Assembly (NCBI GenBank): GCA_012521995.1
Contig: JAAYLH010000096.1
Location: 1 to 58,320 of the forward strand
Length of the DNA stretch: 58,320 nt
Reading direction: 5' to 3'
Source: Bacteroidales bacterium
Lineage (GTDB): Bacteria; Bacteroidota; Bacteroidia; Bacteroidales; UBA7960
Shown here: in pieces, positions 4,081 through 30,981 of the stretch
Numbering within the stretch: the stretch's first letter is position 1
How the letters are laid out: every line of letters begins with the position of its first letter
Program-made: the position numbers and the translations under genes
The notes under the pieces: generated by a model
What the model was told of the DNA's origin: nothing
Seen by the model: only the letters and a program-made list of their open reading frames with translations
The model's database searches: none

Positions 4081-4146
4081 CTTAGTTTAACCGTACTTAA
4101 ACCGTACTTAAACCAATTGAAAACGGTTAAAGTACGGTTTAAATCC
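4081..4146. repeat. 11-bp-periodic repeat element A
   Basis: Six consecutive 11-bp steps can be laid out here: cttagtttaac, cgtacttaaac twice (identical, 4092-4113), caattgaaaac, ggttaaagtac, ggtttaaatcc. The second half is a reverse-complement version of the first: arms 4098-4114 and 4125-4141 pair with 16 of 17 matches around a 10-base spacer. The element lies between the terminator at 3900-3938 and the promoter at 4226, so it is probably outside both transcripts. The rest of the interval 3939-4225 is AT-rich and holds nothing else I recognise. Related elements occur at 12692-12812 and 30918-30981. Function unknown. Confidence 0.8.
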
Positions 4147-4225
4147 AAACAATATCCCCAATGAAGGTCTGTGAGGGATGATCAATTTTAAATGGGGGAG
4201 CATTTTATTTCTTGCTCCTTTTCCC

Positions 4226-4234
4226 TAAATTTGC
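4226..4234 (+). promoter_or_regulatory. Bacteroidota-type -7 box for the endonuclease gene
   Basis: TAAATTTGC fits TAnnTTTGC and predicts a start of transcription near 4240. That excludes the upstream in-frame ATG at 4192 and supports translation from ATG 4252. Confidence 0.5.
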
Positions 4235-4251
4235 CAATTAATACAAAACCC

Positions 4252-5685
4252 ATGTTACGTTCATCATTTCGAAAAAATTCCCGTCTGCTCCTGATATTGA
4301 TTATGGTCCTTGCAAGTGTCCGGGTCATTGCCGCCGGCAGTATTACGCTCTCCACATCCAGCCTGCCGCATTTTCGCGGGGTTTATCCCGGGCAGTTTTC
4401 CGATGTGCAGTTTTATTATGTTCAGGCGAGCGGCATCAGCCAAGACTTAACCATCACCGTTAACGGCCCCTTCAAGGTTTCGCTTGATTGCATGGATCAA
4501 TTTAGCAGCAGCCTGACCCTGAGCCCCAGCAACGGCAATATTTCCTCAAAGCGGATATACGTAAGGTTTTTCCCTGAATCGACAGGACAAAAGCAGGGAA
4601 CCCTAACACACCAGGCCGGTGATGCAGGGCCCTCCACCATTAGCCTGTCTGGTCAGGGCATTTCCACCACCATTCCCACAGGGTATTACAACAGCGCTAC
4701 AGGCCAGGGCAGCCAGCTTAAGACCCAGTTGTTTATGATCATCAACGACCAACAACCCCAGACCTATTCCAGCCTCTGGAGCCATTTCAGGGACTCCGAC
4801 GCCACCTTTACAGCTAAGGTTTGGGATATGTATTCCGACAAGCCCTGCCAGGAACCGCCCTATGTCTTTACCTTTGGCGAGGATCAGGATACCGGTTCAG
4901 GGGGAAATGTAGAGGGGCAATATTATAACCGCGAACACTCGGTTCCCCAGTCTTGGTTTGAGAGCGCAATGCCCATGTACACAGATATGTTCCACATCTT
5001 TCCCACCGACAAAATGGTCAATGGGAAAAGGGGCAATTACCCTTACGGGGAAGTAAGCAACCCTTCCTGGACTTCACAGAACGGTAGCAAGCTCGGTCCC
5101 AACACCACAGGGGGTTATTCAGGGACGGCCTTTGAGCCCATTGATGCCTACAAGGGAGACATTGCCCGCGGGTATTTTTACATGGCTACCCGTTATGAGG
5201 ATGATTTCCCTTCCTGGCAGGGCAATGGCAATGCCTCTGAGGTTTTTGAGAACAGGGAGTTTCCGGGACTTAAGGCGTGGGCGCTGGAGATGTTTCTGGC
5301 ATGGCACACCCAGGACCCTGTTAGCCAGAAGGAGATCATTCGCAACCAGGCTATATATGAAGCCCAGGGAAACCGTAACCCCTTTATTGACCACCCTGAA
5401 TTTGCCTACCGGATTTGGGACGAGAATTATGTATCGGTCAGCAATCCCGGCTTAAACAAAAACTTTCAATTGTATCCCAACCCCGCTAGTGACTGGATTA
5501 TCCTTGAAGCCCCTGAAGGGGCGCGTTCCCTCGATGTTTATTCCTTGCAAGGGGCCAGGATCCTCAGCCGTGACCTCGTGGGGGGAGCCAACAGGATCAA
5601 CACCGGTGACCTTGAACCCGGGCTTTACCTCCTGATCTTAAATACCGTGCGGGAGACTTATCACAAGAAAATGTTGATTCAATAA
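4252..5685 (+). CDS. Secreted endonuclease I family protein with T9SS sorting tail
   Basis: The frame is open from 4192, but I place the start at ATG 4252. There the protein begins with a normal signal peptide (MLRSSFRKNSRLLLILIMVL, ending near AAGS), and a -7 box lies just upstream. The mature protein has an Ig/BACON-like N-terminal domain (about residues 30-135), then an endonuclease I domain (about 150-380) with the family motif YNREHSVPQSWF, in which the His is the expected catalytic base with metal-binding neighbours. It ends in a type IX secretion domain (about 400-477, FQLYPNPASDWIIL). Endonuclease I enzymes cut DNA non-specifically outside the cytoplasm, so this is probably a surface or secreted DNase for nutrient DNA. 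It follows another T9SS cargo gene. Family assignment is firm; the exact substrate is not known. Confidence 0.88.
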   Translation: MLRSSFRKNSRLLLILIMVLASVRVIAAGSITLSTSSLPHFRGVYPGQFSDVQFYYVQASGISQDLTITVNGPFKVSLDCMDQFSSSLTLSPSNGNISSKRIYVRFFPESTGQKQGTLTHQAGDAGPSTISLSGQGISTTIPTGYYNSATGQGSQLKTQLFMIINDQQPQTYSSLWSHFRDSDATFTAKVWDMYSDKPCQEPPYVFTFGEDQDTGSGGNVEGQYYNREHSVPQSWFESAMPMYTDMFHIFPTDKMVNGKRGNYPYGEVSNPSWTSQNGSKLGPNTTGGYSGTAFEPIDAYKGDIARGYFYMATRYEDDFPSWQGNGNASEVFENREFPGLKAWALEMFLAWHTQDPVSQKEIIRNQAIYEAQGNRNPFIDHPEFAYRIWDENYVSVSNPGLNKNFQLYPNPASDWIILEAPEGARSLDVYSLQGARILSRDLVGGANRINTGDLEPGLYLLILNTVRETYHKKMLIQ

Positions 5686-5730
5686 TCTGTTTTTTTAGGC
5701 GTTCCAAACAAAAAACAAAAACCCAAAACC

Positions 5731-5916
5731 ATGAGCAAAAAGTTGACCAAAGGCAGCCAAAGAATGATCGCAGGGGTTTGCAGCGGTATTGCTGAATATT
5801 TTGACACCGACCCCACCCTTATCCGCATCCTGTTTGTATTGTTTGCCCTTGCATTGGGAAGCGGCCTGCTGTTTTACATTATCCTGGCCATCATCATTCC
5901 ATCAAAAGAATACTAG
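5731..5916 (+). CDS. PspC domain small membrane protein
   Basis: A 61-residue protein made almost only of a PspC domain: a conserved N-terminal stretch (KGSQRMIAGVCSGIAEYFD, T/DPTLIRI) followed by one hydrophobic segment (about 33-56). In Enterobacteria PspC belongs to the phage-shock envelope stress response, but stand-alone short PspC proteins are common in Bacteroidota and their role is not settled. Its stop is 3 bases from the start of the DUF456 gene, so the two are probably co-transcribed. The cytoplasmic membrane is the expected location. Confidence 0.85.
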   Translation: MSKKLTKGSQRMIAGVCSGIAEYFDTDPTLIRILFVLFALALGSGLLFYIILAIIIPSKEY

Positions 5917-5919
5917 AAA

Positions 5920-6405
5920 ATGGCAGAAGGCCTGTTGATAGCCCTGAGCATGGTATTGCTGATCCTGGGTACGCTGGGAGCGTTTCTCCCCGTATTGCCC
6001 GGACCGCCCCTTAGTTTTGCAGGCATGCTGATCCTTCATTTCACCTCAGGGTATTCCTTCAGCGGCAAGCTGCTGGTCATCTTTGGTTTGCTGGCGGCCA
6101 TCATTACGGTCGTTGACCTGGTGTTGCCCGTATATGGCACCAAGCGCACGGGAGGAAGCAAACGCGGAATGTATGGTGCGGCCCTTGGCTTGGTGGCGGG
6201 CATCTTCTTTTTCCCCCCGGCGGGTATTCTTGTTGGCCCCTTTGTAGGTGCCTTGGTGGCTGAACTTTCCAACAACCAGGACCTGAAGCCCGCCACGAGG
6301 GCTGCCTTTGGCAGTTTACTGGGCTTGCTGGCAGGCGCCTTGCTGAAGTTAATATATTCGCTGGCGGTGGTTTGGGTCTGCCTGCGGCTGCTGTTTTTTG
6401 GCTAG
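5920..6405 (+). CDS. DUF456 family membrane protein
   Basis: A 161-residue, very hydrophobic protein with about four membrane segments and many Gly and Pro residues. It carries the DUF456 opening pattern (LILGTLGAFLPVLPGPPLSF) and the later glycine-rich GALVAELSNNQDLKPATRAAFGSL-type loop. No biochemical function is established for DUF456. It starts 3 bases after the PspC gene, so a shared envelope-related role is likely but inferred. Confidence 0.85.
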   Translation: MAEGLLIALSMVLLILGTLGAFLPVLPGPPLSFAGMLILHFTSGYSFSGKLLVIFGLLAAIITVVDLVLPVYGTKRTGGSKRGMYGAALGLVAGIFFFPPAGILVGPFVGALVAELSNNQDLKPATRAAFGSLLGLLAGALLKLIYSLAVVWVCLRLLFFG

Positions 6406-6477
6406 TCGGGCATTGAAAGAAATTTCTTAACTTCATAAGAGATTTTACCCCTTTATTTTCCAAACATCATAAGCAAC

Positions 6478-7104
6478 ATGACCGGTGCCATTGCCATGGG
6501 GTTCGATGGGCTCTCGAAAAAGAACTGCCGCCTCTCCTGTGGCGGAGCCTTCTCGCTGGCGACCATTATCCCCGGAGATACTTGCATTGATTTGGGCTGC
6601 GGCAAGGGTCATGATGTGATGCGCATGGCCAGGGTGACCGGGGAAAAAGGGCATGCCTTCGGGATTGACCTGAGCAGGGGCATGATCGAAACGGCCAAAA
6701 TGAATGCAGAGGTGATGCGGGCCCACAATGCCAGCTTCATCCAGTCGACTCTGGAAGAGATCACTCTTGAAGATGATATGGCCGATGTGGTGATCTCCAA
6801 CTGCACAATAAACCATTCATTGCATCAGGGGCAGGTATGGAATGAAATTTTCAGGATTCTTAAGCCCGGGGGCACATTTGTTGTAAGCGATATATACGCC
6901 ACAGAGGAAGTGCCGGAACAATACAAGACAGACCCCTCAGCAGTGGCCGGATGCTGGGCAGGTGCCGAGACCAAAGAAAACTACCTGGCCCATATCGCAA
7001 AAGCAGGGTTTGTGAACATCTCCATCCTTGAAGAATCGGCTCCTTATACCAAAGGCTGCATCCGTGCAGCCAGCTTCACCCTGCAAGGTAAAAAACCCCT
7101 TTAA
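6478..7104 (+). CDS. ArsM-like SAM-dependent methyltransferase
   Basis: A 208-residue class I methyltransferase with SAM motif I DLGCGKG at residues 38-44 and the acidic motif II GIDLSRGMIE. Its pattern is close to arsenite methyltransferases: DVVISNCTIN (C109), ILKPGGTFVVSDI, AVAGCWAGA (C159) and a late Cys in TKGCIRAASF (C194). ArsM uses conserved cysteines to bind As(III), and C159 and C194 are in plausible places. The protein is shorter at the N-terminus than typical ArsM, starting about 37 residues before motif I. No arsR, arsB or other arsenic gene is adjacent, so the arsenic role is inferred from the motifs; another thiol or metalloid methyltransferase is possible. Confidence 0.65.
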   Translation: MTGAIAMGFDGLSKKNCRLSCGGAFSLATIIPGDTCIDLGCGKGHDVMRMARVTGEKGHAFGIDLSRGMIETAKMNAEVMRAHNASFIQSTLEEITLEDDMADVVISNCTINHSLHQGQVWNEIFRILKPGGTFVVSDIYATEEVPEQYKTDPSAVAGCWAGAETKENYLAHIAKAGFVNISILEESAPYTKGCIRAASFTLQGKKPL

Positions 7105-7239
7105 ACAGAGAAGCACACAAACTCCCTGATCTTTAGTAACTTGAGGCGGCATCACACTTCAATCAAACAACTACTGATCAAAATTATCAACTTTTCTGCG
7201 GGAGTTATCAACATTGTTTCCCATCACAACGAAATCTCC

Positions 7240-7248
7240 TACCTTTGC
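7240..7248 (+). promoter_or_regulatory. -7 box of the cobalamin riboswitch transcript
   Basis: TACCTTTGC fits TAnnTTTGC and would start the transcript right at the beginning of the riboswitch fold. Between the ArsM-like gene (ending 7104) and this box I see nothing else. Confidence 0.6.
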
Positions 7249-7252
7249 CTTG

Positions 7253-7430
7253 GTTTTGGTTCCGAACCCCCAATCGGGCACTTCGGATGAAAAGGGAACC
7301 GGGTGAAAATCCCGGACAGTTCCCGCTGCTGTAAGCTCTTTACAATTGTTGCCACCCTATGCCACTGTTGCGGGTTCTCCGTAATGGGAAGGCGGTAAAC
7401 AAGGAGTAAGTCAGAAGACCTGCCAAAACA
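7253..7430 (+). ncRNA. Cobalamin (B12) riboswitch
   Basis: The conserved blocks of the AdoCbl aptamer appear in order: GGTTCC pairing with GGGAACC (7259 region and 7294-7300), GGGTGAAAATCCCGG, ACAGTTCCCGCTGCTGTAA (7317-7335), GCCACTG (about 7361), GGGAAGGC (7386-7393), and GAGTAAGTCAGAAGACCTGCC near 7404-7424. The outer stem pairs TTTTGG near 7254 with CCAAAA near 7423. It precedes a TonB-dependent receptor, the usual target. Adenosylcobalamin binding would be expected to lower receptor expression. Confidence 0.95.
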
Positions 7431-7509
7431 TGTTAATTTGTAGCTTTCGGGAAAAAAGCGAAGAAAAATTGATTCATCTTTTTTTCTCCACCTGGTTTCA
7501 CCGTTTGTT

Positions 7510-7536
7510 ACAAATGATTATAAAAAAATCATTTGT
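7510..7536 (+). other. Hairpin between riboswitch and receptor gene, possible expression platform
   Basis: ACAAATGATT (7510-7519) and its exact complement (7527-7536) form a 10-bp stem with a 7-base loop. It lies between the aptamer and the start codon at 7577. No long T tract follows, so if it is part of the switch it more likely affects translation or RNA stability than intrinsic termination. Confidence 0.4.
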
Positions 7537-7576
7537 TTAACGTGCCCTGAAGGATTCGGGGCGAAATTCAGAAATT

Positions 7577-9511
7577 ATGCGAAAAGGAATTCTGTTTTTT
7601 CTGTTGTGGCAGTTCACCACTGCCTTTGCATTTGCAGAAGAACCCGACACCCTGATCACCTTGCAGGAGGTGTCGGTAACGGCCAGGCGTCAACTGGACT
7701 TCGGGGCGGGTCACACCACCCATACCCTTGACAGTGTGGCCTTGCAACGCAACTCCGATCAGGATCTGGGCTTTCTGCTCAGCAGGCATGGCGGCCTCTT
7801 TATCAAAAGCTACGGACCAGGAATTTTGGCCAGTCCGGCCCTCAGGGGAGGACAGGCAGGACAAACGGCCATGATATGGAATGGCTTCAACCTGCAAAGC
7901 CCCATGAACGGGCAAATGGAGTTGTCGTTGTTGCCTGCCCTCTTTGCCGACGAGGTGCAGGTGCAGTATGGAGGGGGCAGCGCCCTGTGGGGCAGCGGGG
8001 CCATGGGAGGAGCCATTTTCATCAACAACCACCCCAGCCGCGAGCCCGGATTCTCGGGAACCCTGGCCTTGACCACAGGGAGTATCGGCGACTTTGGCCA
8101 GCAACTGAAGCTTAGTTATGCCAGGCCCAGGTTTTCAACCACCCTGAGGTCCTTCCATCGGAATGCCAGGAACGAATACCGATATGCCAACCCAAACCTT
8201 GCGGGCAGCCCTGTGGAGACCCAGGAACTTGCGAGCATTGAACAGGCCGGCATCCTGCACGACACCTGGTTCCAGCTGGGAAACAACCACCGGTTTGATT
8301 TTAAGTGGTGGTGGCAGGACAGCGATCGCAACATCCCTCCTTCCCTCGATATGGATTATTATGAGTCGCGGCAAAAAGACAAGAGCCTTAGGCTGAGCGG
8401 CCAATACCAATTCAGCTTGCCCGAAATATTGATCATGATCAGGGGCGCGCGTTTTGAAGATCAGCTGAATTTCAGTGACAACCTTGAGTACGATGGCGAC
8501 AGCCAAAGCATAGTGAATACAGGGGAAGCAGAGGCCCGCTGGAACCCTTTAAAAGGACTGATCTTCAATGGTGGCGTCAATGTCCGGAAGTCCACTGCCA
8601 ACGCCCTGGAATATGAAGAGGAGCAAGGGCGCAACAGCCTGGCAATCTTTGCCTCTGCCAAATGGGAAGCCAAGGAAGACCAGCTGGAGCTGGTAATGAG
8701 CGGGCGGCAGGAGTTTGTCAGGGAACGCGAGATCCCCTTTGCCCCTTCCCTGGGCATTGCCTGGAAACCTATTCAAAACTGGACCCTCAAGGGCAATGCA
8801 GGCTACAGCTACCTCCTGCCCTCCATGAATGACCTGTATTGGAGCCCCGGCGGCAATCCAGACCTGAAGCCCGAACAAGGCTGGAGCGGTGAGATAAGGC
8901 TTGAACGCCTGAAACAACGCAATACCAGCGCGAAAGTCTTCAGTGTCTTTGAACACCTCAGCCTGGGAGCTTACCAAAGGCGCATCCGGAACTGGATCAT
9001 CTGGCTGCCTGTGGATGACACCTGGATATGGATGCCCCAAAACCGCCTGGAAGTAAGAAGCTATGGACTGGAAAGCCGCTGGGCCGGATACGGAAAGCTG
9101 GGGCAAGGCATGTTGGAATGGAACCTGAGATACGACCTTACCATTGCCGAAAATTCGAAAGGCATGGACGCTGATGATCCATCCCTGGGAAAACAACTGA
9201 CATACGTTCCCAAGCATCGGGGCGGGATTAACCTGAGTTTTTCAATTAAAAATCTTAGCATCTTCTACAACCACGAGATGGGCGGGAAGAGATATACCAG
9301 CAGCGACAACAGCCAGTGGCTGCCATCCTATCACACGGGGGATATCGGGCTGAGCTGGAAGCCCAGGATATTCAACCAGCAAATGGGCTTGAATCTCACT
9401 GTCGAGAATCTCTGGAACACCCGCTACCAGATCATTGACAACCGTCCAATGCCCCTTCGTTATGTCAGGGCAGGGATGTATTTTCGATTTTCTCAAAAAC
9501 AAAAGGCCTGA
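7577..9511 (+). CDS. TonB-dependent outer membrane receptor, BtuB-like
   Basis: A 644-residue outer membrane protein with a signal peptide (MRKGILFFLLWQFTTAFAFA). A plug domain follows (about 27-150, LQEVSVTARRQ, VQVQYGGGSALWGSGAMGGAI), then a beta-barrel ending in the usual aromatic strand (YVRAGMYFRFS). The length matches BtuB-type receptors and not the large SusC class. The cobalamin riboswitch directly upstream makes vitamin B12 or another corrinoid the likely substrate, taken up with TonB-ExbBD energy. No btuCDF or cobalamin-modifying gene is present nearby in this window. The receptor family is read from sequence; the ligand is inferred from the riboswitch. Confidence 0.9.
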   Translation: MRKGILFFLLWQFTTAFAFAEEPDTLITLQEVSVTARRQLDFGAGHTTHTLDSVALQRNSDQDLGFLLSRHGGLFIKSYGPGILASPALRGGQAGQTAMIWNGFNLQSPMNGQMELSLLPALFADEVQVQYGGGSALWGSGAMGGAIFINNHPSREPGFSGTLALTTGSIGDFGQQLKLSYARPRFSTTLRSFHRNARNEYRYANPNLAGSPVETQELASIEQAGILHDTWFQLGNNHRFDFKWWWQDSDRNIPPSLDMDYYESRQKDKSLRLSGQYQFSLPEILIMIRGARFEDQLNFSDNLEYDGDSQSIVNTGEAEARWNPLKGLIFNGGVNVRKSTANALEYEEEQGRNSLAIFASAKWEAKEDQLELVMSGRQEFVREREIPFAPSLGIAWKPIQNWTLKGNAGYSYLLPSMNDLYWSPGGNPDLKPEQGWSGEIRLERLKQRNTSAKVFSVFEHLSLGAYQRRIRNWIIWLPVDDTWIWMPQNRLEVRSYGLESRWAGYGKLGQGMLEWNLRYDLTIAENSKGMDADDPSLGKQLTYVPKHRGGINLSFSIKNLSIFYNHEMGGKRYTSSDNSQWLPSYHTGDIGLSWKPRIFNQQMGLNLTVENLWNTRYQIIDNRPMPLRYVRAGMYFRFSQKQKA

Positions 9512-9568
9512 ATGCACATAAAGGGAGATGAGCAAAACAATCCCATCACTCCCAAGTGAATTTTTCTT

Positions 9569-9576
9569 ATTTTTGC
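9569..9576 (+). promoter_or_regulatory. -7 box before the lipoprotein gene
   Basis: TATTTTTG fits TAnnTTTG and lies 6 bases before ATG 9582. If used, the following two genes need not depend on the riboswitch. The message would be nearly leaderless, or would start at ATG 9612. Confidence 0.4.
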
Positions 9577-9581
9577 GGGAT

Positions 9582-10091
9582 ATGAAAGCCTTTGCAGGAT
9601 CGAGTGTAAAGATGGTGCTGGTAGGAATTGCCAGCCTGATGTTGCTGGGTTCCTGTCAGAACGACGAGCTCTGTGAGGAGGCCACATCCAACCCGCTCAG
9701 GATGGGTTTTTACCTGCCGACTGTCACCGATGGGAGTCCGACGACTTATACCCTTGACAGCCTTTCATTGTATGGTTCAGGCCGTCCTGACAGCCTCCTG
9801 TATGACAACACCAAAAGTGTTCGCAGCATTGAAGTTCCCTTGAACCCCGCATCGGGCACCACGGGCTTTGTTTTCACATTCCCCGGTGAAATTACCGACA
9901 CCCTTTGGGTAGCGTATACCCATTCACTGAATTTTGTCTCGGCCGAATGCGGCTTTACGATGTTTTATGAGATACAGGAGGTGACCCATACCAATGCGCG
10001 TATTCATTCCATTCAATTACCCCAAACCCTGGTAAACCACAGCCTTGAAGAGCATATCAAAATACTTCTTTATCCTGATCCTGAGCTTTAG
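9582..10091 (+). CDS. Predicted lipoprotein, DUF6452-like
   Basis: I place the start at ATG 9582, giving 169 residues. ATG 9612 is the alternative, and the open frame extends back to 9528. The N-terminus is a lipoprotein signal with lipobox LLGSC (MVLVGIASLMLLGSCQ), so Cys would be lipidated and the protein tethered in the envelope. The rest is a beta-rich domain with paired cysteines (CEEA, SAECGFTMFYEI) and a C-terminus ending in HIKILLYPDPEL. It resembles the DUF6452 family, which in Bacteroidota tends to sit beside a DUF6048 protein, as it does here. Function unknown. The end overlaps the next gene by 47 bases. Confidence 0.65.
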   Translation: MKAFAGSSVKMVLVGIASLMLLGSCQNDELCEEATSNPLRMGFYLPTVTDGSPTTYTLDSLSLYGSGRPDSLLYDNTKSVRSIEVPLNPASGTTGFVFTFPGEITDTLWVAYTHSLNFVSAECGFTMFYEIQEVTHTNARIHSIQLPQTLVNHSLEEHIKILLYPDPEL

Positions 10092-10725
10092 CTTGAGTGC
10101 AAGGGCACAGCAGGGTGACACGCTGGTTTTCAGGCCATCGTTCAGCCTGGGCTATGACCTTGCCGGGCTGGCGAGGAATTTCCTGGAGCCGGAGGTGATG
10201 ATGCACCAGGTTACGGCCGCTTATGAATGGCAGCCCAACTGGTTTGCAGCCATGGAAGCAGGACATATGGATGTGGGGGTGGCCCGCGAGACGCATAACT
10301 ATGATGCCCGGGGATTATTTTTCAGGGCCGGGGTGAATTACAACTTGTTCCAGAAAAACCCCGCTATGAAAGGAGATGAGATATTCCTTGCCTTTCGCTA
10401 TGGATTTGGCTGGCTTGACCACGAAGCCCCACGTATCATCATCACTGAGCCCTACTGGGGTTCTGTGGAAGATGTGTTTGAACCGGCGGGCTACTCGGCG
10501 CACTGGGCTGAGATTGGCGGAGGGCTTAAAACCAAATTGTTCTGGAATCTTTATCTTGGATGGGATTTGCGCATCAGGCTGATGCTGGCCCGTAACGCAG
10601 GTTCAGAGATGGAGCCCTATTACATAAGCGGCTTTGGCAAAAACGAAGGAAACACCTCGGTGATGCTCCATTATTCCCTGTATTATAAATTTTCTGCAGG
10701 GAAAAACAGGATCCATATACGATAA
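10045..10725 (+). CDS. Predicted outer membrane beta-barrel protein, DUF6048-like
   Basis: The only start that keeps the signal peptide (KSISKYFFILILSFSLSARA) is TTG at 10045, inside the preceding gene. There is no ATG in the leader. The 226-residue product has repeated amphipathic aromatic strands (AAYEWQPNWFAAMEAGHMDV, FFRAGVNYNLFQ, YYKFSAG) typical of a small outer membrane barrel and resembles DUF6048. The 47-base overlap with the lipoprotein gene suggests translational coupling and a shared envelope role. No function is known to me. Confidence 0.65.
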   Translation: MKSISKYFFILILSFSLSARAQQGDTLVFRPSFSLGYDLAGLARNFLEPEVMMHQVTAAYEWQPNWFAAMEAGHMDVGVARETHNYDARGLFFRAGVNYNLFQKNPAMKGDEIFLAFRYGFGWLDHEAPRIIITEPYWGSVEDVFEPAGYSAHWAEIGGGLKTKLFWNLYLGWDLRIRLMLARNAGSEMEPYYISGFGKNEGNTSVMLHYSLYYKFSAGKNRIHIR

Positions 10726-10780
10726 ATGTAAAAACTTCGTTCTATCCTTGTTAGCGTTTGTCCGACGCTTATTAGGTTGA

Positions 10781-11533
10781 ATGTTAGGCTACTTTGATAG
10801 AAAATACGGAAAAAATCCTACTGTAAATCTGTTCCCTTTACAGGCAAGGTATGGTTTGCAGACCATGCCCTCTGAAATTAATAATGCATTTATGGAATTT
10901 ACCCGTGCCAGGGAATTTATTATCCGTAAGCTTACCCGGGAGTTAAAGCCGTCCCTTTTTTACCACAATGCCCAGCATACCCTCGACGTAATTCGTTCAG
11001 TGGAGACCCTAGCCCTTATGGAGAAAGTTGACGATGGCAAACTCCTGTTGTTGCTGACAGCGGCCCTGTATCATGATACAGGCTACCTGTGGTCGTATGA
11101 AAATAATGAGCCCCTTGCCCGCGATTTTGCTGAAGAGACGCTGCCCGCTTTTGGTTATTCAGACAAACAAATCAGGGAAATTGGCAGGCTGATCCTATCT
11201 ACCGCCATGCCCCAGCGCCCGGAAAACCTCCTGGAAGAGATCCTCTGTGATGCGGATCTGGATTATGTCGGCCGCGATGACTTTTTCATCACCGCCCTGC
11301 GCCTGCACCGCGAATGGAGCGAGAACAGCCCATTAAAAATTTCCTTCAGGGACTGGTATGAGCGACAGCGTGATTTCATAGAATGGCATGAATTCTTTAC
11401 GCCTTCAGCCCGTCTATTACGCAACGAGAAAAAGAAAAAAAACCTCACGCAGGTAAAAGAACTCCTTGACTTGATCGAGACCACCAGCCCATTTGGTCAG
11501 AAAAAGATCAATGGAATAAAGAATCGTTTTTAA
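10781..11533 (+). CDS. HD-domain phosphohydrolase
   Basis: A protein of 250 residues from ATG 10781, or 222 from ATG 10865 (MPSEINNAFM), which I slightly prefer because the extra N-terminus looks unconserved. It has the HD pattern: YHNAQHT (His62 and His66 in the long form), the HD pair LYHDTGYL (His98, Asp99) and a late Asp in CDADLDYVG. HD proteins are metal-dependent phosphohydrolases or nucleotidases, often acting on cyclic or modified nucleotides. No GGDEF, cyclase or other signalling domain is fused. Substrate unknown. It lies alone between the DUF6048-like gene and a universal stress protein gene. Confidence 0.75.
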   Translation: MLGYFDRKYGKNPTVNLFPLQARYGLQTMPSEINNAFMEFTRAREFIIRKLTRELKPSLFYHNAQHTLDVIRSVETLALMEKVDDGKLLLLLTAALYHDTGYLWSYENNEPLARDFAEETLPAFGYSDKQIREIGRLILSTAMPQRPENLLEEILCDADLDYVGRDDFFITALRLHREWSENSPLKISFRDWYERQRDFIEWHEFFTPSARLLRNEKKKKNLTQVKELLDLIETTSPFGQKKINGIKNRF

Positions 11534-12485: not shown

Positions 12486-12522
12486 AGGCCGTCTCCGATA
12501 CCGGGGACGGCCTTGTTTTTTT
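12486..12522 (+). terminator. Rho-independent terminator after the Usp gene
   Basis: An 11-bp stem with one wobble (AGGCCGTCTCC 12486-12496 and 12503-12513), a 6-base loop and a T-rich tail to 12522. It begins 26 bases after the stop codon. Confidence 0.9.
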
Positions 12523-12691
12523 CCCCTGATTCTTCCTTTCCTTATGCTTTCTTAAGCCTTTTTTTTTGAATTCCATTTCTGCAATCCAGCCAGGTTTTTT
12601 CCCTGCCCTCTCATAGAAACCCGAATTTCTTTAATGCGATCTTTTACCATTTCAGGTTCGATTCAGGGTTGAAATCCCGACCTGCTTAAAC

Positions 12692-12812
12692 CGTACCTTA
12701 GACGTACCTTAGACGTACCTTAGACGTACCTTAGACGTACCTTAGACGTATGAAATACGTTTAAGATACGTTTTATCTACGTTAATGATTCGTATTATCT
12801 ACGTTTCATCTT
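12692..12812. repeat. 11-bp-periodic repeat element B (11 units)
   Basis: Five exact copies of cgtaccttaga (12692-12746) are followed by six diverged units that keep the same 11-bp phase and the leading CGT: cgtatgaaata, cgtttaagata, cgttttatcta, cgttaatgatt, cgtattatcta, cgtttcatctt. The array spans 121 bp with no loss of register. It lies in the 548-base gap between the Usp gene and ligA (12461-13008). The rest of that gap holds the terminator at 12486-12522 and an AT-rich approach to ligA, and I see no small gene there. There are no spacers of constant length, so it is not CRISPR. Function unknown. Confidence 0.9.
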
Positions 12813-23953: not shown

Positions 23954-26182
23954 TTACTCCTTGGTTTCTTCGTTTTCGTCAGCAGCGGGCTTTTCTTCCG
24001 CAGCAGGGGCATCGGCTTCAGGAGCCTCTTCCTTCTTTTTACGGGTGGCTTTGGTCTTGGGCTTCTCTACAGGAGCCTCTTCATCAGCCTTTTCAGATTT
24101 GGCTTCTTCTTTGGCCTTTTCCTTCTCGTCCATGGCAGCCAGCTTTTCCTTCAGTGCAGTTTTTTCGGTCTTTTCGATCTCTGACTTCAGATTGGCAAGG
24201 ACACTGAGGTCACCAAGGGTGGTTTTCTCAATGTTGTCCTTAAGCTTTTTCACGGCGCTCTTGGTCGATTTCTCCTTAGCCTTGCGCTCACTGGTTTCGA
24301 CAGCTCTCTCGGCTGACTTCACATCCTGGAATACCTTAGTATGTGAAACCACGATCTTCTTGCTTTCCTTGTTGAACTCAATCACTTTGAAATCAAGGGT
24401 CTCGTCCATTTTAGCGGGGCTGCCGTCTTCCTTCACGATATGACGTGTGGGTGCAAAGCCTTCCACGCCGTAGGGCAGCGAAACGATCACGCCTTTATCG
24501 GAAGTACCGACAATAGTACCCTGGTGAACGGAGTCGATTGTAAACACGCTCTCAAACACATCCCAGGGGTTCTCTTCAAGCTGCTTGTGGCCAAGGCTCA
24601 GGCGGCGGTTATCCTTATCAACATCCAGCACCACCACTTCAATGCTTTCACCAATCTTTGTGAATTCTGCAGGATGCTTAATCTTCTTGCTCCAGGAAAG
24701 GTCGCTGATATGGATCAGGCCGTCAACGCCCTCTTCCAGTTCAACAAAGATACCGAAGTTGGTAAAGTTGCGGACAGTGGCGGTGTGCTTGGAGTTCACG
24801 GGGTATTTTTCAACGATGTTTTCCCATGGATCGGGAATCAGCTGCTTAATACCCAGCGACATCTTGCGCTCTTCGCGATCAAGGGTCAGGATCACGGCGT
24901 CCACCTCATCGCTCACCTTCAGGAAGTCCTGGGCGGTGCGCAGGTGCTGAGACCATGACATTTCAGATACGTGGATCAGGCCCTCAACGCCGGGGGCAAT
25001 CTCAATGAATGCACCATAGTCGGCAATGACTACCACGCGACCTTTAACCTTATCGCCAACTTTCATTTCAGCATCGAGTGAATCCCAGGGATGGGAAGTC
25101 AGCTGTTTGAGGCCAAGGGCAATGCGTTTCTTATTCTCATCGAAGTCGAGGATTACCACGTTGATTTTCTCATCGAGGTTAACAATCTCTTCAGGATGGT
25201 TGATGCGTCCCCAGGAGAGGTCGGTGATATGGATCAAACCGTCCACACCGCCCAGGTCAACAAACACACCATAGGAGGTAATATTCTTAACAGTCCCTTC
25301 GAGGATCTGTCCTTTCTCAAGTTTGGCAATGATTTCTGCCTTCTGGATTTCAAGTTCGGCTTCGATCAGCGCTTTGTGCGATACCACAACGTTCTTGTAT
25401 TCGTGGTTGATCTTCACGACTTTGAATTCCATGGTTTTGCCAACATAGATATCATAGTCACGGATAGGCTTCACATCAATCTGCGAGCCGGGCAGGAAGG
25501 CTTCAATGCCGAATACATCGACGATCAGACCGCCTTTGGTGCGACACTTCACGAAACCATTGATGATCTCGTCGTTGTCCATCGCTGCATTGATGCGTTC
25601 CCATGAGCGCAGGGTACGTGCCTTTTTATGCGAAAGCACAAGTTGTCCGCTGGTATCTTCCTGGCTTTCCACATAGACCTCGATGGCATCGCCAATCTTC
25701 AGGTCTTGATTGTAGCGTACTTCTGCAGCGGGAATAACCCCATCGGATTTAAAGCCAATGTTGACCACCACCTCACGGTTGTTCATGGAAACGACCGTAC
25801 CATCGATCACTTCACCTTCGCCAATTGACTTCAGGGTCTCATCATAGAGAATTTCCATGCGCTGACGCTCAGCTGCTGAATAAGCTTCCTGCTTCTTGCC
25901 GATGGAATCCCAGTCAAATTCTCCGGGAACTTGTTGCGTGAACGGGCTGGTTTTCTTCTTGGGGGTTTCTGGCTTTTCTTCAGCCTTGGGTGCTTCAGCA
26001 ACTTCTTCTGCGGGTGCTTCCTCTGATTCTTCAACAGGAGCCTCGGCGATTTCTTCTGCAGGGGTTTCTTCAACCTCCTCTGCAGGGGTTTCAGTTGCTT
26101 CTGCCTGGTTTTCGGTTTGCTCTGCAGGGTTTTCTACAGGCTGGTCTTCCGAAGGGTTCAGATTTTTGTTTTCTTCTGACAT
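23954..26182 (-). CDS. rpsA: Ribosomal protein S1 with long charged tails
   Basis: A 742-residue protein with six consecutive S1 RNA-binding domains from about residue 122 to 620. Domains 3-5 are the most canonical (GVFVDLGGVDGLIHITDLSW, GAFIEIAPGVEGLIHVSEMSW, GIFVELEEGVDGLIHISDLSW). S1 brings mRNA to the 30S subunit. An acidic low-complexity region rich in Glu, Ala and Pro occupies residues 1-80, and a Lys/Glu/Ala-rich tail extends from about 640 to the end, so the protein is longer than common S1. In a lineage with little Shine-Dalgarno use, S1 may carry more of the mRNA recruitment; that link is inference. The leader of about 97 bases starts at the -7 box 26286-26294. Confidence 0.95.
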   Translation of the reverse strand: MSEENKNLNPSEDQPVENPAEQTENQAEATETPAEEVEETPAEEIAEAPVEESEEAPAEEVAEAPKAEEKPETPKKKTSPFTQQVPGEFDWDSIGKKQEAYSAAERQRMEILYDETLKSIGEGEVIDGTVVSMNNREVVVNIGFKSDGVIPAAEVRYNQDLKIGDAIEVYVESQEDTSGQLVLSHKKARTLRSWERINAAMDNDEIINGFVKCRTKGGLIVDVFGIEAFLPGSQIDVKPIRDYDIYVGKTMEFKVVKINHEYKNVVVSHKALIEAELEIQKAEIIAKLEKGQILEGTVKNITSYGVFVDLGGVDGLIHITDLSWGRINHPEEIVNLDEKINVVILDFDENKKRIALGLKQLTSHPWDSLDAEMKVGDKVKGRVVVIADYGAFIEIAPGVEGLIHVSEMSWSQHLRTAQDFLKVSDEVDAVILTLDREERKMSLGIKQLIPDPWENIVEKYPVNSKHTATVRNFTNFGIFVELEEGVDGLIHISDLSWSKKIKHPAEFTKIGESIEVVVLDVDKDNRRLSLGHKQLEENPWDVFESVFTIDSVHQGTIVGTSDKGVIVSLPYGVEGFAPTRHIVKEDGSPAKMDETLDFKVIEFNKESKKIVVSHTKVFQDVKSAERAVETSERKAKEKSTKSAVKKLKDNIEKTTLGDLSVLANLKSEIEKTEKTALKEKLAAMDEKEKAKEEAKSEKADEEAPVEKPKTKATRKKKEEAPEADAPAAEEKPAADENEETKE

Positions 26183-26285
26183 TTAAAAAGGGTGATTAAA
26201 TACTGTGGTTTTTCAGACTATCGTATTCGTAATCCAAAACAACCGGGTTAAACAATAAGTGAATTACAGGCCCTCAAAAGGGACT

Positions 26286-26294
26286 GCAAAGGTA
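26286..26294 (-). promoter_or_regulatory. -7 box for rpsA
   Basis: On the minus strand TACCTTTGC fits TAnnTTTGC exactly. It predicts a 5' leader near 97 bases before the rpsA ATG at 26182. Confidence 0.6.
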
Positions 26295-26342
26295 GAATTA
26301 TTTCTACAAACAACAAACTAAAAATCAGATTTTAAGACCAGC

Positions 26343-28817
26343 TTAAACCTCAAACACCAGGGGTTTATCCACCTGCTCTTTTCCCATGGCCAGGTCAACG
26401 ACTTCTGTCATTTCGCGGATATATACAAAATTCAAGCCTTTCAGGTATAGTGGGTTGATCTCAGCCACATCCTTTCGGTTCTCTTCCGAAAGGATAACAT
26501 GCTGAATTCCTGCCCGCTTGGCGGCCAAAATCTTCTCCTTGATACCGCCTACAGGCAGCACCTTTCCCCTGAGGGTGATCTCTCCCGTCATGGCCACGCC
26601 CGGCTTCACCTTACGCTGGGTGAAGGCCGAAGTGAGGGCTGCAAACATTGTGATACCCGCTGATGGGCCATCCTTGGGTGTTGCTCCTTCAGGAATGTGC
26701 ATATGGACGTTGTATTTCTCAAAGATCTTAGCGTCAATGCCCAGTATGGATGCCTGCGCTTTCAGGTATTCGTAGGCCAGGGTGGCCGACTCTTTCATGA
26801 CGTCGCCAAGGTTACCCGTAAGGGTCAGTTGCCCTTTGCCCTTGCTGATGCTCACTTCAATATAAAGGACTTCTCCCCCTGCCCAAGTCCAGGCCAGACC
26901 TGTCATCACTCCTGCCAGGTCGCGGATTTGCTCCTGGTCACGGTTATTGACCGGCACCCCAAGGATTCTTACCACTTCCTCCACCTTCAGGTTGGGGTCA
27001 ACGACCTCCCCAAGGACGATCTCACGTGCCTTGGCACGAATCACTTTGGCAATGCGTTTCTCCAGGGTCCTTACCCCCGACTCACGGGTATAATCCTCAA
27101 TGATCTTGGCAAGCACCTTCTTGCTAAACTTCAGCTGATCAGGCTTTACCCCGTGCTCAGCAAGCTGCTTAGGCAACAGGTGCCTGCGGGCGATCTCGAC
27201 CTTTTCCTCCACTATGTAACCGCTCAGGTTGATAATTTCCATTCGGTCGCGCAGGGCAGGCTGAATATTCGACAGGTTGTTGGCTGTGGCAATGAACATC
27301 ACGTTCGACAGGTCGTAGTCCACCTCCAGGTAGTTGTCGTAAAAAGCCACATTCTGTTCGGGGTCGAGCACTTCGAGCATGGCCGATGAGGGGTCGCCCG
27401 AGAAAGTCTGGTATCCCACCTTATCAATCTCATCAAGAACAAAGACAGGGTTGCTGGTTTTGGCTTTTTTAAGGTTCTGGATGATCCTTCCGGGCATGGC
27501 ACCCACATAAGTCTTGCGGTGCCCACGGATTTCGGCTTCATCGCGCAAGCCACCCAGTGACATACGGATGTATTGCCGGCCCACAGCCTCGGCAATGGAT
27601 TTCCCGAGTGAGGTTTTACCCACCCCGGGAGGGCCTACAAAACAAAGGATGGGCGACTTCATGTTGCCCTTCAGCTTCAGCACGGCCAGGTATTCGATGA
27701 TGCGTTCCTTGATTTTTTCAAGTCCGTAATGATCGCGGTCGAGCACTCTCTGCGCCTTTTTCAGGTCAAACTTATCCTTCGAAAACTCGTTCCACGGCAA
27801 TTCAACAAGGGTTTCAATGTAGTTCAGATGAATCGAGAATTCCATGGCCGCAGGATTGATGCGCTGCAGCTTGACAATCTCTTTTTCGAAAACTTCCTTG
27901 ACCTGCTTGCTCCATTTTTTAGATTTCGCGCGCTCCTTCAGTTCCAGGATCTGCTGGTCGTAGGGATTGCCCCCGAGCTCTTCCTGTATGGTCTTCAGTT
28001 GCTGATTCAGCAAATAATCGCGCTGCTGTTTATCGATATCGACCTTTACCTTGCTCTGGATCTGATTCTTTAACTCCACCATCTGCAGTTCGCGGGTCAG
28101 GTGTTCAAGCACCTTATTCGCTCTATCATTCAGGTCGAGGGTCTCCAGCAGTTTCTGCTTCTCAGCATTGTCAATGTTCAGATTCGAGGAGATGAAGTTC
28201 ACCAGGAACACTGGGCTTTCGATGTTGCGGATTGCAAAGGCAGCTTCACTGGGAATATTGGGTGAAAGTTTTACGATTTGAATGGCGAGGTCCTTAATGG
28301 TGCCAATCAGGGCCTTGAATTGCTGGTCGCTTTTCACCTTGATTTGGCTGTCGAAGCCCACTACCCTGGCTTTAAAATAAGGCTCGCTGGCAACAAGCTC
28401 CATGATCTCAAGCCGCTTCTTGCCCTGGATGATCACCGTAGTGTTTCCATCGGGCATCTGCAGGGTCTTGAGGATATGGGCGTAGGTGCCAATGCGGTTC
28501 AGGTCCTCAAAATCAGGCTCTTCCGTTTCGGCGTCCTTCTGAGATACAACACCAATCACGCGGTTCTTTTTATACACCTCCCGCACCAGCCGTATCGACT
28601 TGTCGCGCCCCACGGTAATGGGGATTACCACCCCCGGAAACAATACAGTATTCTTTAAGGGAAGTATGGGAAGGACATCAGGAATCTGCTCTGCAGCCAT
28701 TTGTTCTTCTTCCTCTGCGCTGAGCAGGGGGATGAATTCGCTTTCAGCATCCATGATGTCAGATAAAAGCATGCTTTCTCGTTCAAAAAAATTATCCATA
28801 AAAAAATATTGCGTCAA
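26343..28817 (-). CDS. lon: ATP-dependent protease Lon
   Basis: An 824-residue protein with the full LonA layout: N-terminal substrate domain (about 45-250), coiled helical region, AAA+ ATPase with Walker [10 protein letters not shown] and Walker [11 protein letters not shown], and a C-terminal protease domain with Ser719 in DGPSAGITM and the catalytic Lys in GGIKEK. Lon degrades misfolded and regulatory proteins in the cytoplasm. Several in-frame ATG codons lie at the start (28817, 28799, 28772, 28754) and none is favoured by a clear ribosome site, so the first 20 or so residues are uncertain. No heat-shock operator is evident upstream (28818-28900). Confidence 0.96.
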
Positions 28818-29025
28818 AATGTCATTAACAATGATAAAACGTCAGCCAGGGGGTTTTTGTTCCCGGGCATCTTATTTCTTTCGTTCGGGCAACATCCCGG
28901 AAACCAGCACTTTGAACCCTTGAAAAAAATTCATGCGAGATTTTGATTCTCAGGTCATAATATTACGCAACAGCCGTGCCAAGGATCAGAATTCCAAAAA
29001 ACAACCCAATTTGTCAGCCCAACAA

Positions 29026-29060
29026 CAAAAAAGGTGCTTTGCAAGTTTAGCAAAGCACCT
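29026..29060 (-). terminator. Terminator after the GlmU-like gene
   Basis: A perfect 11-bp stem (AGGTGCTTTGC with complement, arms 29032-29042 and 29050-29060) has a 7-base loop and is followed on the minus strand by a T tract. It starts about 20 bases after the stop codon. Between here and the lon start nothing else is recognisable. Confidence 0.9.
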
Positions 29061-29080
29061 AAATTATTTTCAGAGAACCC

Positions 29081-30268
29081 TTACATCCTGCGGTAGCTAA
29101 AGGATTGATTGTAGACATTGCGAATAATTTGCTCGTCCAGGTCGCCGAACTCCAGACCCTTACGGGCAAATACCCTCTGGGCGACCTGCACGGCCTTATT
29201 GATGTCTACATTGCTAAATCCTGCCACGCTGCCCCAGGAGAATGAAGGGATGAAATTGCGCATAAACCCTGCCCCGAAGATCTGGGCATTGATCCCGATC
29301 ACGGTACCAGTATTAAACATGGTGTTGATTCCACACTTAGAGTGGTCGCCCATAAAGGTCCCGCAAAACTGCTGTCCCGTGTTTACGAAGCTGTTCTCAG
29401 CATAATCCCAAAGGCGCACCTCATCGTAATTGTTTTTCAGGTTTGAGGCATTGGTATCAGCGCCCAGGTTGCACCACTCGCCGATGACGCTGTGGCCCAG
29501 GTAGCCATCGTGGGCTTTATTGGTATAGCCAAAAATAACCGATTGGCTCATCTCGCCCCCTACCTTGCAATAAGGGCCGATGGACGAACCCGGGTAAATC
29601 TTTGCAGCCATCCTGATCTTGGCACCTTCGCCCACTCCTACAGGCCCCCTGAGGACAGCGCCATCCATCACTTGGGCATTCTTGCCAATATATACCGGAC
29701 CTTCGGAGGCATTGATCATGGCCATCTCAAGCACTGCGCCCTCTTCCACGAAAATGTTTTCAGGGGCAATGACCCTCACGTGTTCACCCAGGGGCTGGCT
29801 TTTCCGTCCCTTGGTGATCAGCAAAAAGTCATCCACAATGGCCTGCTCGTTCAAGACCACAATATCCCAGAGGTTGTTCAGTTTTTTAAGCTCTGCCTTG
29901 GATTCCAATGGGATGACCTTTTCCAGGGCATCTGCATCGAGGTTATCGATATCGATATCGCGCAAGCGATGGGCAATCAGCACATCACCCAGCACCAGGG
30001 TCTGATTGGGCTCCAGTTGGCCAATCTCTTTCACAAGGTCCTTGCCGGGCAACACACTGGAGTTGATCAGGACATTGTCGGCCTTCTTCACAATAGGGTA
30101 TTTGACGCTGAGGTACTCTTCGGTCAGGGTAGAGGTCTTCGCACCCAGGTAAAGCTCCCATTTCTCGCGTATAGTAAGGATTCCAACCCTGATATCGGCC
30201 AGGGGACGCAAAAAGGTAAAAGGAAGCAGGTGCTCCCGTGTCTGATCGCCAAAGAGGATATAATTCAT
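29081..30268 (-). CDS. GlmU-like sugar-nucleotidyltransferase / acyltransferase family protein
   Basis: A 395-residue protein of the GlmU-like family typical of Bacteroidota. The N-terminal half (about 1-190) is a degenerate nucleotidyltransferase-like domain (MNYILFGDQTREHLLPFTFLRPLADIRVGIL). The C-terminal half (about 195-350) is a left-handed beta-helix made of hexapeptide repeats (VYIGKNAQVMDGAVLRGPV, GAKIRMAAKIYPGSSIG, VIGEWCNLGADTNASNLK). The likely role is in UDP-GlcNAc or related sugar-nucleotide synthesis. The classic GlmU LAAGxGTRM motif is not visible, so the first activity may differ or be lost. It lies downstream of rpmE2 but is separated from it by a terminator. Confidence 0.8.
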   Translation of the reverse strand: MNYILFGDQTREHLLPFTFLRPLADIRVGILTIREKWELYLGAKTSTLTEEYLSVKYPIVKKADNVLINSSVLPGKDLVKEIGQLEPNQTLVLGDVLIAHRLRDIDIDNLDADALEKVIPLESKAELKKLNNLWDIVVLNEQAIVDDFLLITKGRKSQPLGEHVRVIAPENIFVEEGAVLEMAMINASEGPVYIGKNAQVMDGAVLRGPVGVGEGAKIRMAAKIYPGSSIGPYCKVGGEMSQSVIFGYTNKAHDGYLGHSVIGEWCNLGADTNASNLKNNYDEVRLWDYAENSFVNTGQQFCGTFMGDHSKCGINTMFNTGTVIGINAQIFGAGFMRNFIPSFSWGSVAGFSNVDINKAVQVAQRVFARKGLEFGDLDEQIIRNVYNQSFSYRRM

Positions 30269-30330
30269 TAGAGGGAAGATTTAAATATCAATATTCAAAT
30301 TCAAGAACGAATAAAGATAGAAAAATTTTT

Positions 30331-30357
30331 AAAAAAAAAGCCCTTAAAAAGGGCTTT
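30331..30357 (-). terminator. Terminator after rpmE2
   Basis: AAAGCCCTT and AAGGGCTTT form a 9-bp stem around 3 bases. On the minus strand it is followed by a run of at least nine T. It separates rpmE2 from the GlmU-like gene. Confidence 0.88.
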
Positions 30358-30381
30358 CTAAAAAAGTATCGTGAAGAAAGA

Positions 30382-30648
30382 TTAATTTTCTTTCTGCTTG
30401 AGATGCTTCTGGTATTTTGTACGGAACTTATCCACACGTCCTGCAGTATCGACCAGCTGCTGCTTGCCGGTGTAGAAAGGATGCGAGGTATGTGAAATTT
30501 CCAGTTTTACCAGGGGATACTCCTTGCCGTCTTCCCAAACGATGGTTTCCTTAGTGGCGGCCGTTGAACGGGTCATAAAGGAGTATTCGTTCGACATGTC
30601 CTTGAAAACGACAAAACGATAGTCTTTTGGATGGGTATCTTTTTTCAT
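30382..30648 (-). CDS. rpmE2: Ribosomal protein L31 type B
   Basis: The open frame reaches back to 30720, but the L31 homology starts at ATG 30648 ([20 protein letters not shown]), giving 88 residues. The sequence matches type B L31 ([25 protein letters not shown]) and contains no cysteine, so it is the zinc-free form. In many bacteria the zinc-free form replaces type A L31 under zinc limitation; in Bacteroidota it is often the only L31. No Zur-like operator is evident. The leader from the -7 box at 30802-30810 is about 150 bases, long for such a short gene. Confidence 0.95.
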
Positions 30649-30801
30649 AACACTTGATAATTTTTTGAAGATCACCGTTTGCCTGAAGTGTTGAATCCCA
30701 TGGCGCGGGTGTTGCTTCAAAAGTTCTTGTTAAACAGCCCTTTTAGATGCTTGGTTCTTGTTCTTCTCCTGAAAGGCCTCACGGCTTGTTTTTTCAGGAC
30801 T

Positions 30802-30810
30802 GCAAAGATA
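30802..30810 (-). promoter_or_regulatory. -7 box for rpmE2
   Basis: TATCTTTGC on the minus strand fits TAnnTTTGC. It predicts a leader of about 150 bases containing a CCTGAAA/TTTCAGG inverted pair (30768-30797), of unknown meaning. Confidence 0.5.
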
Positions 30811-30917
30811 AAAATAATTTTCTGAATAAAAAATCACATGAAAAAAGTTTTTTCCTTTTTCCTGTTCAAGTCAATCCCGGCTTAACAAGGGAAAGATACA
30901 TACCGGTTCTGGGCCAT

Positions 30918-30981
30918 AGTTAATACGGAGTTAATACGGAGTTTATACGGTTTAAACCGTATAAACTCCGTATTAACTCCG
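30918..30981. repeat. 11-bp-periodic repeat element C with a perfect 56-bp palindrome
   Basis: Three tandem 11-bp units (agttaatacgg twice, 30918-30939, then agtttatacgg, 30940-30950) are followed by their mirror copies. Bases 30926-30981 form a perfect palindrome of two 28-base arms with no spacer, centred on TTTAAA at 30951-30956. The element lies in the 474-base gap between rpmE2 (start 30648) and DUF1015 (stop 31123), upstream of the rpmE2 -7 box and beyond the DUF1015 terminator. No T tract adjoins it, so it is not a normal terminator. I see no gene in the gap. Function unknown. Confidence 0.92.

Follow-up and report, generated by a model that had tools for sequence, protein, structure and literature searches.

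Dyad-centred arrays of 11-bp-spaced CpG cores form a dispersed, mostly intergenic family in a Bacteroidales genome

The ParR iterons of type II plasmid partition systems are 11-bp direct repeats arranged in two groups at a single plasmid site beside parMR. According to the passages of PMC9304148 that deal with them, CarH occupies tandem 11-bp repeats on one face of the DNA, the number and sequence of the repeats being plastic, and the operators of CarH and CarA, found at one or two promoters, comprise three to five repeats that contain a TnnACA motif. The relevant parts of two further accounts describe BldC, a MerR-like protein of Streptomyces that forms head-to-tail multimers on 9-bp direct repeats at promoters (PMC5859096), and RdfS-type oligomeric winged helix-turn-helix factors, which assemble head to tail over a variable number of phased sites (PMC11963761). 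For DNA gyrase of E. coli, the portion of PMC6379681 concerned with its motif describes a symmetrical sequence of ~130 bp with a 10.75-bp periodicity of GC content in flanks that reach ~63–66 bp from the centre; phased sequences bind gyrase strongly, through a readout described there as indirect and degenerate. Here we describe arrays of 11-bp units mirrored about a dyad in the genome of a Bacteroidales bacterium (assembly GCA_012521995.1), three of which lie in the 58,320-bp contig JAAYLH010000096.1, the whole of which is referred to as the window. The window is contig C131 of this 3.26-Mb draft genome (G000), whose closest named relatives, judged by LigA (80–81% identity), are the Bacteroidales bacteria UBA4814 and KA13.

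Three window elements and a genome-wide family

A preliminary description of the window had pointed to three places built from 11-bp units, and both direct reading and lag-11 self-match scores confirm them:

4086..4142, no strand assigned: element A, alpha class, dyad at 4119.5, CG at -27, -16, +5 and +16
12690..12812, no strand assigned: element B, delta2 class, dyad at 12753, 11-bp steps
30918..30981, no strand assigned: element C, beta class, dyad at 30953.5, TACGGAGTTWA units mirrored about TTTAAA

The arms of element A (20 bp) are 90% complementary, and element C is a perfect palindrome (28 + 28 bp) with CG at -49, -27, -16, -5, +5, +16 and +27. Element B has six rungs on its left, in clean units of CGTACCTTAGA, and five on its right, in degenerate units, with CG steps every 11 bp from -60.5 to -5.5 and from +5.5 to +49.5. 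When lags of 6–30 were tested across the window, lag-11 self-matches of at least 12 occurred only at A (16), B (53.5) and C (19.5). Because the best self-match elsewhere in the window, at any lag, also scores 16 (lag 24), element A alone is not outstanding, whereas B and C are. Tandem Repeats Finder (TRF) reported a period of 11 at all three elements, and also at two weaker places in the window (scores 33 and 36).

The family is larger than the three places first claimed. Across G000 the pattern TACGGN6TACGG has 59 + 58 matches, against 6 + 6 for the reversed pattern; TACGTN6TACGTN6TACG has 86 + 70 against none for its control, and a three-unit TACG pattern has 110 + 93 against none. A hand count gave at least 78 separate places, made up of 39 among the TACGG-pattern matches listed (five isolated ones set aside), 31 among the TACGT-pattern matches listed and 8 more in the fetched stretches plus the window. 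In 1,107,031 bases of G000, a sample partly picked around matches, an array-finding script detected 52 arrays, whereas two control cores gave 2 and 6; C111:13252 (inside an open reading frame (ORF) of 493 codons) and C99:58324 (uncertain) were excluded from later sets. In an array-biased sample of 729,700 bases (40 stretches picked around matches, plus the window), lag 11 yielded 58 segments, and no other lag in the range 5–33 gave more than 20. The pattern counts, the lag scan and the 52 detections bear out the idea of a family that is dispersed, keeps strictly to 11 bp and occurs in varied gene contexts. The two outcomes that, by the preliminary description, would have defeated this idea did not occur: copies were found throughout the genome, and lag and pattern controls, used in place of shuffling, showed the 11-bp period to stand out.

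The arrays belong to several sequence classes. Alpha elements have two TTTAACCGTAS units per arm around AATTRYAATT, beta elements have TACGGAGTTWA units and the mirror centre seen in element C, and the units of the gamma, delta1 and delta2 classes are TACGGTCRAGA, TACGTSTKAAC and TACGTCTAAGG, respectively. Centres are wholly different between classes, the number of units varies between arrays, and several delta elements have one clean arm and one degenerate arm. Near-identical alpha copies, and likewise beta copies, stand at unrelated positions in the genome. The turn from direct to inverted units noted in the preliminary description is present, and amounts to an organised two-arm structure with a class-specific centre; the CCGTA/TACGG core proposed there is not the invariant, which is instead a CpG step at fixed distances from the dyad.

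CpG ladder, core constraint and arm pairing

When the elements are centred on their best palindromes, CpG steps lie at about ±5, 16, 27, 38, 49 and 60 bp. Among 50 elements, 239 of the 264 CpG steps within 34 bp of the dyad fall in one of the 11 phases, as do 78 of 119 at 34–67 bp. Beyond about 66 bp the ladder fades: the same phase holds 15 of 87 steps at 67–100 bp (where phase 10 holds 18), 12 of 108 at 100–133 bp and 19 of 107 at 133–166 bp. GC content peaks in the CpG phase to about 70 bp, and no 11-bp peak stands out beyond 66 bp. Three gamma dyads had been moved 5.5 bp by hand before the phase counts, and the dyad of C2:32614 was also shifted by hand for the delta-arm, GC-profile and skew analyses; C17:37003 was left on an off-phase palindrome and counts against the phase rule. 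Elements A, B and C all obey the rule, and the arrays of G002 and G003, two genomes of the same genus as G000, have identical CG positions. Most alpha copies lack the ±5 rungs, and 11 of 16 have CG at -60 (+60 lay beyond the range displayed). Two single-copy arrays without TACG also fit the rule by eye, namely the epsilon array and C99:106207, the latter found in a CpG-ladder scan whose list holds 11 places not in the TACG list, the majority of which look, on inspection, CG-rich and coding-like. The phase counts within 34 bp of the dyad support, and sharpen, the earlier proposal that every unit would face the same side of the DNA.

In orthologous arrays of G002 and G003, the cores are under constraint while the spacers change freely. 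Of seven ortholog pairs tried, all but L249/L242 could be aligned across the array; L250/L245 was not included. In these six, substitutions affect 1 of 128 TACG core positions, as against 19 of 206 in the spacers, 30 of 420 in the 35-bp edges and 118 of 2,015 in the flanks (core versus spacer, P = 0.0013; core versus flank, P = 0.009; spacer versus flank, P = 0.07), with some bias towards low core change because the cores were called in G002. One indel between the orthologous arrays is of exactly 11 bp.

As single sequences, A, B and C fold better than shuffled sequences on both strands (z about -3.3 to -11.4), a result that mirrored cores alone would yield. Across nine delta elements, spacer identity was 54.0% for cognate pairs of arms and 57.8% for non-cognate pairs (P = 0.89). 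The delta arms are therefore no more complementary than mismatched arms, which argues that a hairpin is not the thing kept in this class. Cognate beta arms paired no better than non-cognate ones (P = 0.83), and for alpha arms the same comparison gave P = 0.23 among the 14 copies fitting one centre expression, copies with altered centres (C14, C96 and window element A among them) being excluded. One alpha copy, in C54, carries a single unmirrored change, and no mirroring is visible in the spacer changes that separate G002 from G003. A scan of the window against Rfam at gathering scores returned a cobalamin riboswitch only, with no family matching the elements.

Placement, flanks and distribution

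With genes called by a simple ORF script, 27 of the 52 detections lie in tandem gaps, 11 in convergent and 9 in divergent gaps, with 2 undetermined and 3 overlapping an ORF; among gaps of at least 120 bp, element gaps included, the corresponding baseline is 137 tandem, 38 convergent and 90 divergent. Eight loci passed an anchoring filter that took both flanks to G003 or G002. At all eight the array is missing in the relative, and the relative's gap is shorter by 220, 252, 261, 282, 286, 288, 288 and 635 bp. Among 125 element-free gaps the median length difference is 0, and the only one to exceed its sister counterpart by over 150 bp holds the epsilon array. Of the looser loci, C93:44075 has ~365 bp and C7:33470 ~1.6 kb more in G000; at C111:8137, G003 lacks the array, yet its gap is ~1.8 kb longer; the rest were anchored on one flank only. 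Empty sister loci are thus present, the intergenic DNA being too diverged for an insertion junction to be located. The gap before ligA measures 548 bp in G000 versus about 89 and 86 bp in UBA4814 and KA13, and the array detector found no array in any of 80 fetched ligA loci. Some elements are old: the gamma element at C51 has an ortholog, with fewer units, in G002.

The positions are suggestive of an avoidance of close spacing. Among 20 gaps between elements on 13 contigs the minimum is 8.6 kb, and none is below 8 kb where 6.1 would be expected under uniform placement (P = 2.5e-4; TACG-based, with C89, C94, C99, C111 and C123 left out). Among 199 neighbouring proteins compared, only small clusters of paralogues appeared. 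The arrays C51:6823, C122:1845 and C93:19934 (L076, L095 and L086) adjoin paralogous genes of ~210–227 aa with an N-terminus like MAYAKQG..GEFKGRLGN, which probably belong to DUF6266, and the G003 array L199 adjoins sequence related to these genes.

The flanks of different copies are not homologous beyond ~35 bp, and the two arms do not pair there; alignment scores between flanks of different copies barely exceed those of reversed controls (mean 16.81 versus 16.31). Capture of the flanks from elsewhere was considered and set aside: 29 matches lie outside their own locus, mostly short or of the array itself, with the right flank of C20:61244 matching C91 over 99 bp and C109 over 108 bp. What the flanks share is composition. 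At +66 to +140 the outward GC skew in G000 is +0.185 (SE 0.019, n = 100 flanks), compared with +0.008 (SE 0.014, n = 258) in other intergenic DNA, and it is +0.186 in G003 (n = 26) and +0.271 in G002 (n = 24), these being orthologous loci and not fully independent; purines make up 56.5% of the flanks versus 50.0% of other intergenic DNA. Since the outer arms are G- and purine-rich in the outward direction, transcripts running inward from the neighbour on either side would be rich in C and poor in G. A weak phase signal extends to +111 in beta flanks (z 5.6 and 4.2), where A-rich and T-rich positions stand about half a turn apart; alpha flanks show only a slight one and the other classes none, delta and gamma flanks having no phase signal beyond +45.

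Four-unit TACG arrays match in 22 of 393 genomes of the order and in 9 of 395 from the phylum, G000 being counted in both and the reversed control pattern also matching in some genomes. Within the family, 6 of 47 genomes match, mainly in the genus of G000, where two of three genus mates (G002 and G003) carry the same design and G001 has none; three other family genomes have single matches, one of which (G031) is two-armed by eye. The four-unit pattern is abundant in G179 (40 + 43 matches) and in G649, of another class (15 + 28), and the three-unit pattern has 62 + 67 matches in G179 and none in its congener G415. Many matches in other genomes are single one-way arrays, and families with another core would be missed, because the searches used the TACG core. 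Several of these arrays have features of their own. Those of G103 (L121–L128) lie within longer repeats, L123:4481-5096 having long mirrored arms outside the array. Three of the five G179 arrays (L256–L260) share ~300–570 bp of flank at 81–86% identity, and the other two share little beyond the array. In G744 (C1:2641657-2641827), four-unit 11-bp arrays of TACGAATCGCC type recur within 170 bp, and L346 (G027:C49:1460) is a one-way array in which 11-bp units like CTTCCGTATTT run into units like CTCCGAACTTT.

The genes next to A, B and C in the window are ordinary: Endonuclease_1, Usp, NAD-dependent DNA ligase, sugar nucleotidyl transferase and DUF1015. At these three elements, the only ones so inspected, hairpins resembling terminators were judged by eye:

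3903..3938, plus strand: terminator-like hairpin with a T run, between the upstream gene (ends 3875) and element A
12486..12523, plus strand: terminator-like hairpin with a T run, between the Usp-domain gene (ends 12460) and element B
31071..31099, minus strand: terminator-like hairpin at the 3' end of the DUF1015 gene, between that gene and element C

For the Endonuclease_1 gene that follows element A, inspection by eye suggests that the ATG at 4252 may be the start in place of 4192 (window 4192-4260), and the sequence TAAATTTG at ~4226 is presumably a promoter-like site. The cobalamin riboswitch (RF00174, 112 bits) occupies 7240-7441 (+), ahead of an ORF at 7577-9511. An inverted repeat at 32449-32518, between two minus-strand ORFs, has 31-nt arms that are 84% complementary and an 8-nt loop; it is absent from the list of 11-bp periodic places.

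Possible nature of the arrays and likeness to known systems

The preliminary description had envisaged co-occurrence with a particular DNA-binding gene, which was not seen for either of the two candidates followed across genomes. Y1 transposases (RAYT-type), considered as mobilisers, were rejected because Y1_Tnp occurs in 11 of 12 genomes regardless of arrays, with one copy in G000, three in array-free G001, two in array-free G415 and only a 48-position fragment in array-rich G179. MerR_1 proteins, considered as partners, were rejected because all 13 of 13 genomes have one to three, G001 and G415 included. A MerR gene (domain G000:C1:5056-5262) lies ~235 bp from the delta1 array at C1:5496, a coincidence that rough arithmetic puts at about a one-in-ten chance of arising somewhere.

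The reading towards which we lean, tentatively and short of thinking it probable, is that each element is a dyad-centred array of helically phased protein–DNA contacts, likely acting as a boundary between transcription units. A candidate DNA-binding protein would read the CpG-containing core (usually TACG) once per 11-bp turn; assembly would start at the dyad, where the inner CG steps are 10–11 bp apart, and would then grow outward on one face, making up to about six contacts per arm over about 130 bp in all. Rungs that stay fixed, spacers free to vary, mirrored arms and a phase extending to ~66 bp are the traces expected of such one-contact-per-turn assembly from a dyad. In its favour stand the CpG phase, the recurrence of the CG positions in G002, G003 and the two arrays that lack TACG, the core constraint, the unpaired delta arms, the outward GC skew and the want of close neighbours, with CarH on tandem 11-bp repeats and BldC on 9-bp repeats as precedents for proteins on arrays of this sort. 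Set within an intergenic segment ~220–290 bp longer than in sister genomes, with outer arms G- and purine-rich outward, the array might then separate neighbouring transcription units as a topological or transcription road-block. The protein polymerising along DNA that was first suggested fits the conserved cores and free spacers, although no such protein has been found. Several other observations also weigh against the protein-array reading. MerR_1 proteins occur in array-free genomes as well, and the function is not essential, since arrays are missing from G001, in the same genus, and from G415, the congener of G179. In a worst-case recount the core–spacer difference falls to P = 0.03. Alpha copies are near-perfect palindromes, which binding alone would not need, and two private alpha variants (C11 and C55) are mirrored in both arms of their own copy. 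In five G179 arrays the outward GC skew is 0.00 (n = 10). The spacing test was post hoc, the coefficient of variation of the gaps is unremarkable (P = 0.09), and the epsilon array lies ~7 kb from a beta element.

RNA to which Rho loads is C-rich and G-poor. As RNA from the inward arms would have this composition, a bolder version can be framed, in which the elements are a new class of chromosomal boundary by virtue of geometry and not of sequence, with a dyad-nucleated protein filament that makes one CpG contact per helical turn over ~130 bp and Rho-like inward transcripts forming a two-way insulator of transcription and supercoiling, and in which they spread and their letters diversified anew while the phase was kept. 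We regard this version as decidedly unlikely.

Two explanations that we judge fairly unlikely draw on much of the same evidence. If the arrays were strong gyrase sites, that is, phased symmetrical GC/AT DNA bound tightly between genes by gyrase or another wrapping protein, as is reported for BIME-2 of E. coli and the Mu strong gyrase site, one would understand their symmetry, the ~11-bp period and its fading at ~66 bp, all of which recall the E. coli motif as far as PMC6379681 characterises it, and also the phased A-rich and T-rich positions of beta flanks to +111. Indeed, GC and CpG peaks recur every ~11 bp to ~66 bp on both sides, as in the composition of strong gyrase sites, a likeness in composition only. 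However, the readout described in that part of PMC6379681 is indirect and degenerate, whereas the core of the arrays is near-invariant and their spacers, by eye, swap G/C and A/T; moreover, class centres differ wholly, delta and gamma flanks are unphased beyond +45, and the wide GC-skewed outer arms would go unexplained. A mobile or MITE-like element (MITE, miniature inverted-repeat transposable element), its arms being arrays of transposase or recombinase binding sites with no gain to the host, would account for the near-identical alpha and beta copies at unrelated places, the absence at all eight anchored sister loci with 220–635 bp more DNA in G000, the high copy number in G179 with none in its congener, and the fact that longer repeats enclose the arrays of G103 and those of three of the five G179 stretches; target immunity could then lie behind the avoidance of close neighbours. 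The earlier idea of a mobile or recombining short repeat stands to this extent, the mirrored alpha variants included. Against mobility, the distribution of Y1 transposases does not follow that of the arrays, no target duplication or sharp end has been demonstrated, flanks differ between copies beyond ~35 bp, and G002 and G003 have kept orthologous arrays whose cores are under selection.

Two further explanations carry less weight with us. A transcribed palindrome, acting through an RNA or cruciform hairpin as terminator, stabiliser or RNase III substrate, is very unlikely: one turn of A-form RNA spans 11 bp, the three window elements fold well, and alpha copies have their palindromes and mirrored variants, but cognate arms pair no better than non-cognate ones in the delta, beta and alpha classes, spacer changes between species are not visibly mirrored and Rfam offers no match at gathering scores. 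The mirrored alpha variants themselves point to arm-to-arm copying or pairing within the alpha class. That the arrays as a whole are neutral minisatellites, produced by slippage and arm-to-arm copying, is the most improbable account; unit numbers do vary, one single-unit indel separates two species and one-way 11-bp arrays occur singly in other genomes, yet slippage fixes no CpG–dyad distances across classes, protects no cores over spacers and makes no many-copy families with skewed arms.

No description of such arrays was found in the openly licensed PMC literature. Because what the arrays share is distances and not letters, and because the known groups against which they were tested offered only the compositional gyrase likeness, we place them in a category of their own. 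It is usually by their letters that dispersed bacterial repeats are recognised. Here classes with different letters share one dyad-distance rule, and a comparison of species allows selection to be measured on the rungs alone. Whether a protein that reads the phase or wraps the DNA exists can be tested directly, and the arrays could reveal by what means adjacent transcription units are kept apart in this group; were the gyrase reading true, they would be a variant of known gyrase sites.

Among known systems, ParR iterons are likewise 11-bp direct repeats, at one plasmid site as opposed to the many chromosomal places of the arrays. CarH/CarA operators share 11-bp repeats read on one face, and the arrays differ from them in their mirrored arms, CpG cores and dozens of intergenic places; identity with such operators was rejected because TACGTSTKAAC and TACGGAGTTWA units lack TnnACA by eye and the arrays occupy gaps of all orientations. 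BldC and RdfS assemblies resemble the arrays in having phased sites of variable number, and dyad-centred arms do not feature in the passages that describe them (PMC5859096, PMC11963761). REP/REPIN sequences with RAYT, as summarised in PMC3733652, PMC2817692 and PMC3116915, are like the arrays in being many short palindromic intergenic copies; the arrays lack a matching Y1 distribution, and their classes share geometry and not sequence. E. coli gyrase sites, BIME-2 and the Mu strong gyrase site are symmetrical, ~130 bp long and ~11-bp periodic, BIME-2 being intergenic, and the relevant portion of PMC6379681 gives them a degenerate, indirect readout where the arrays have a near-invariant CpG core.

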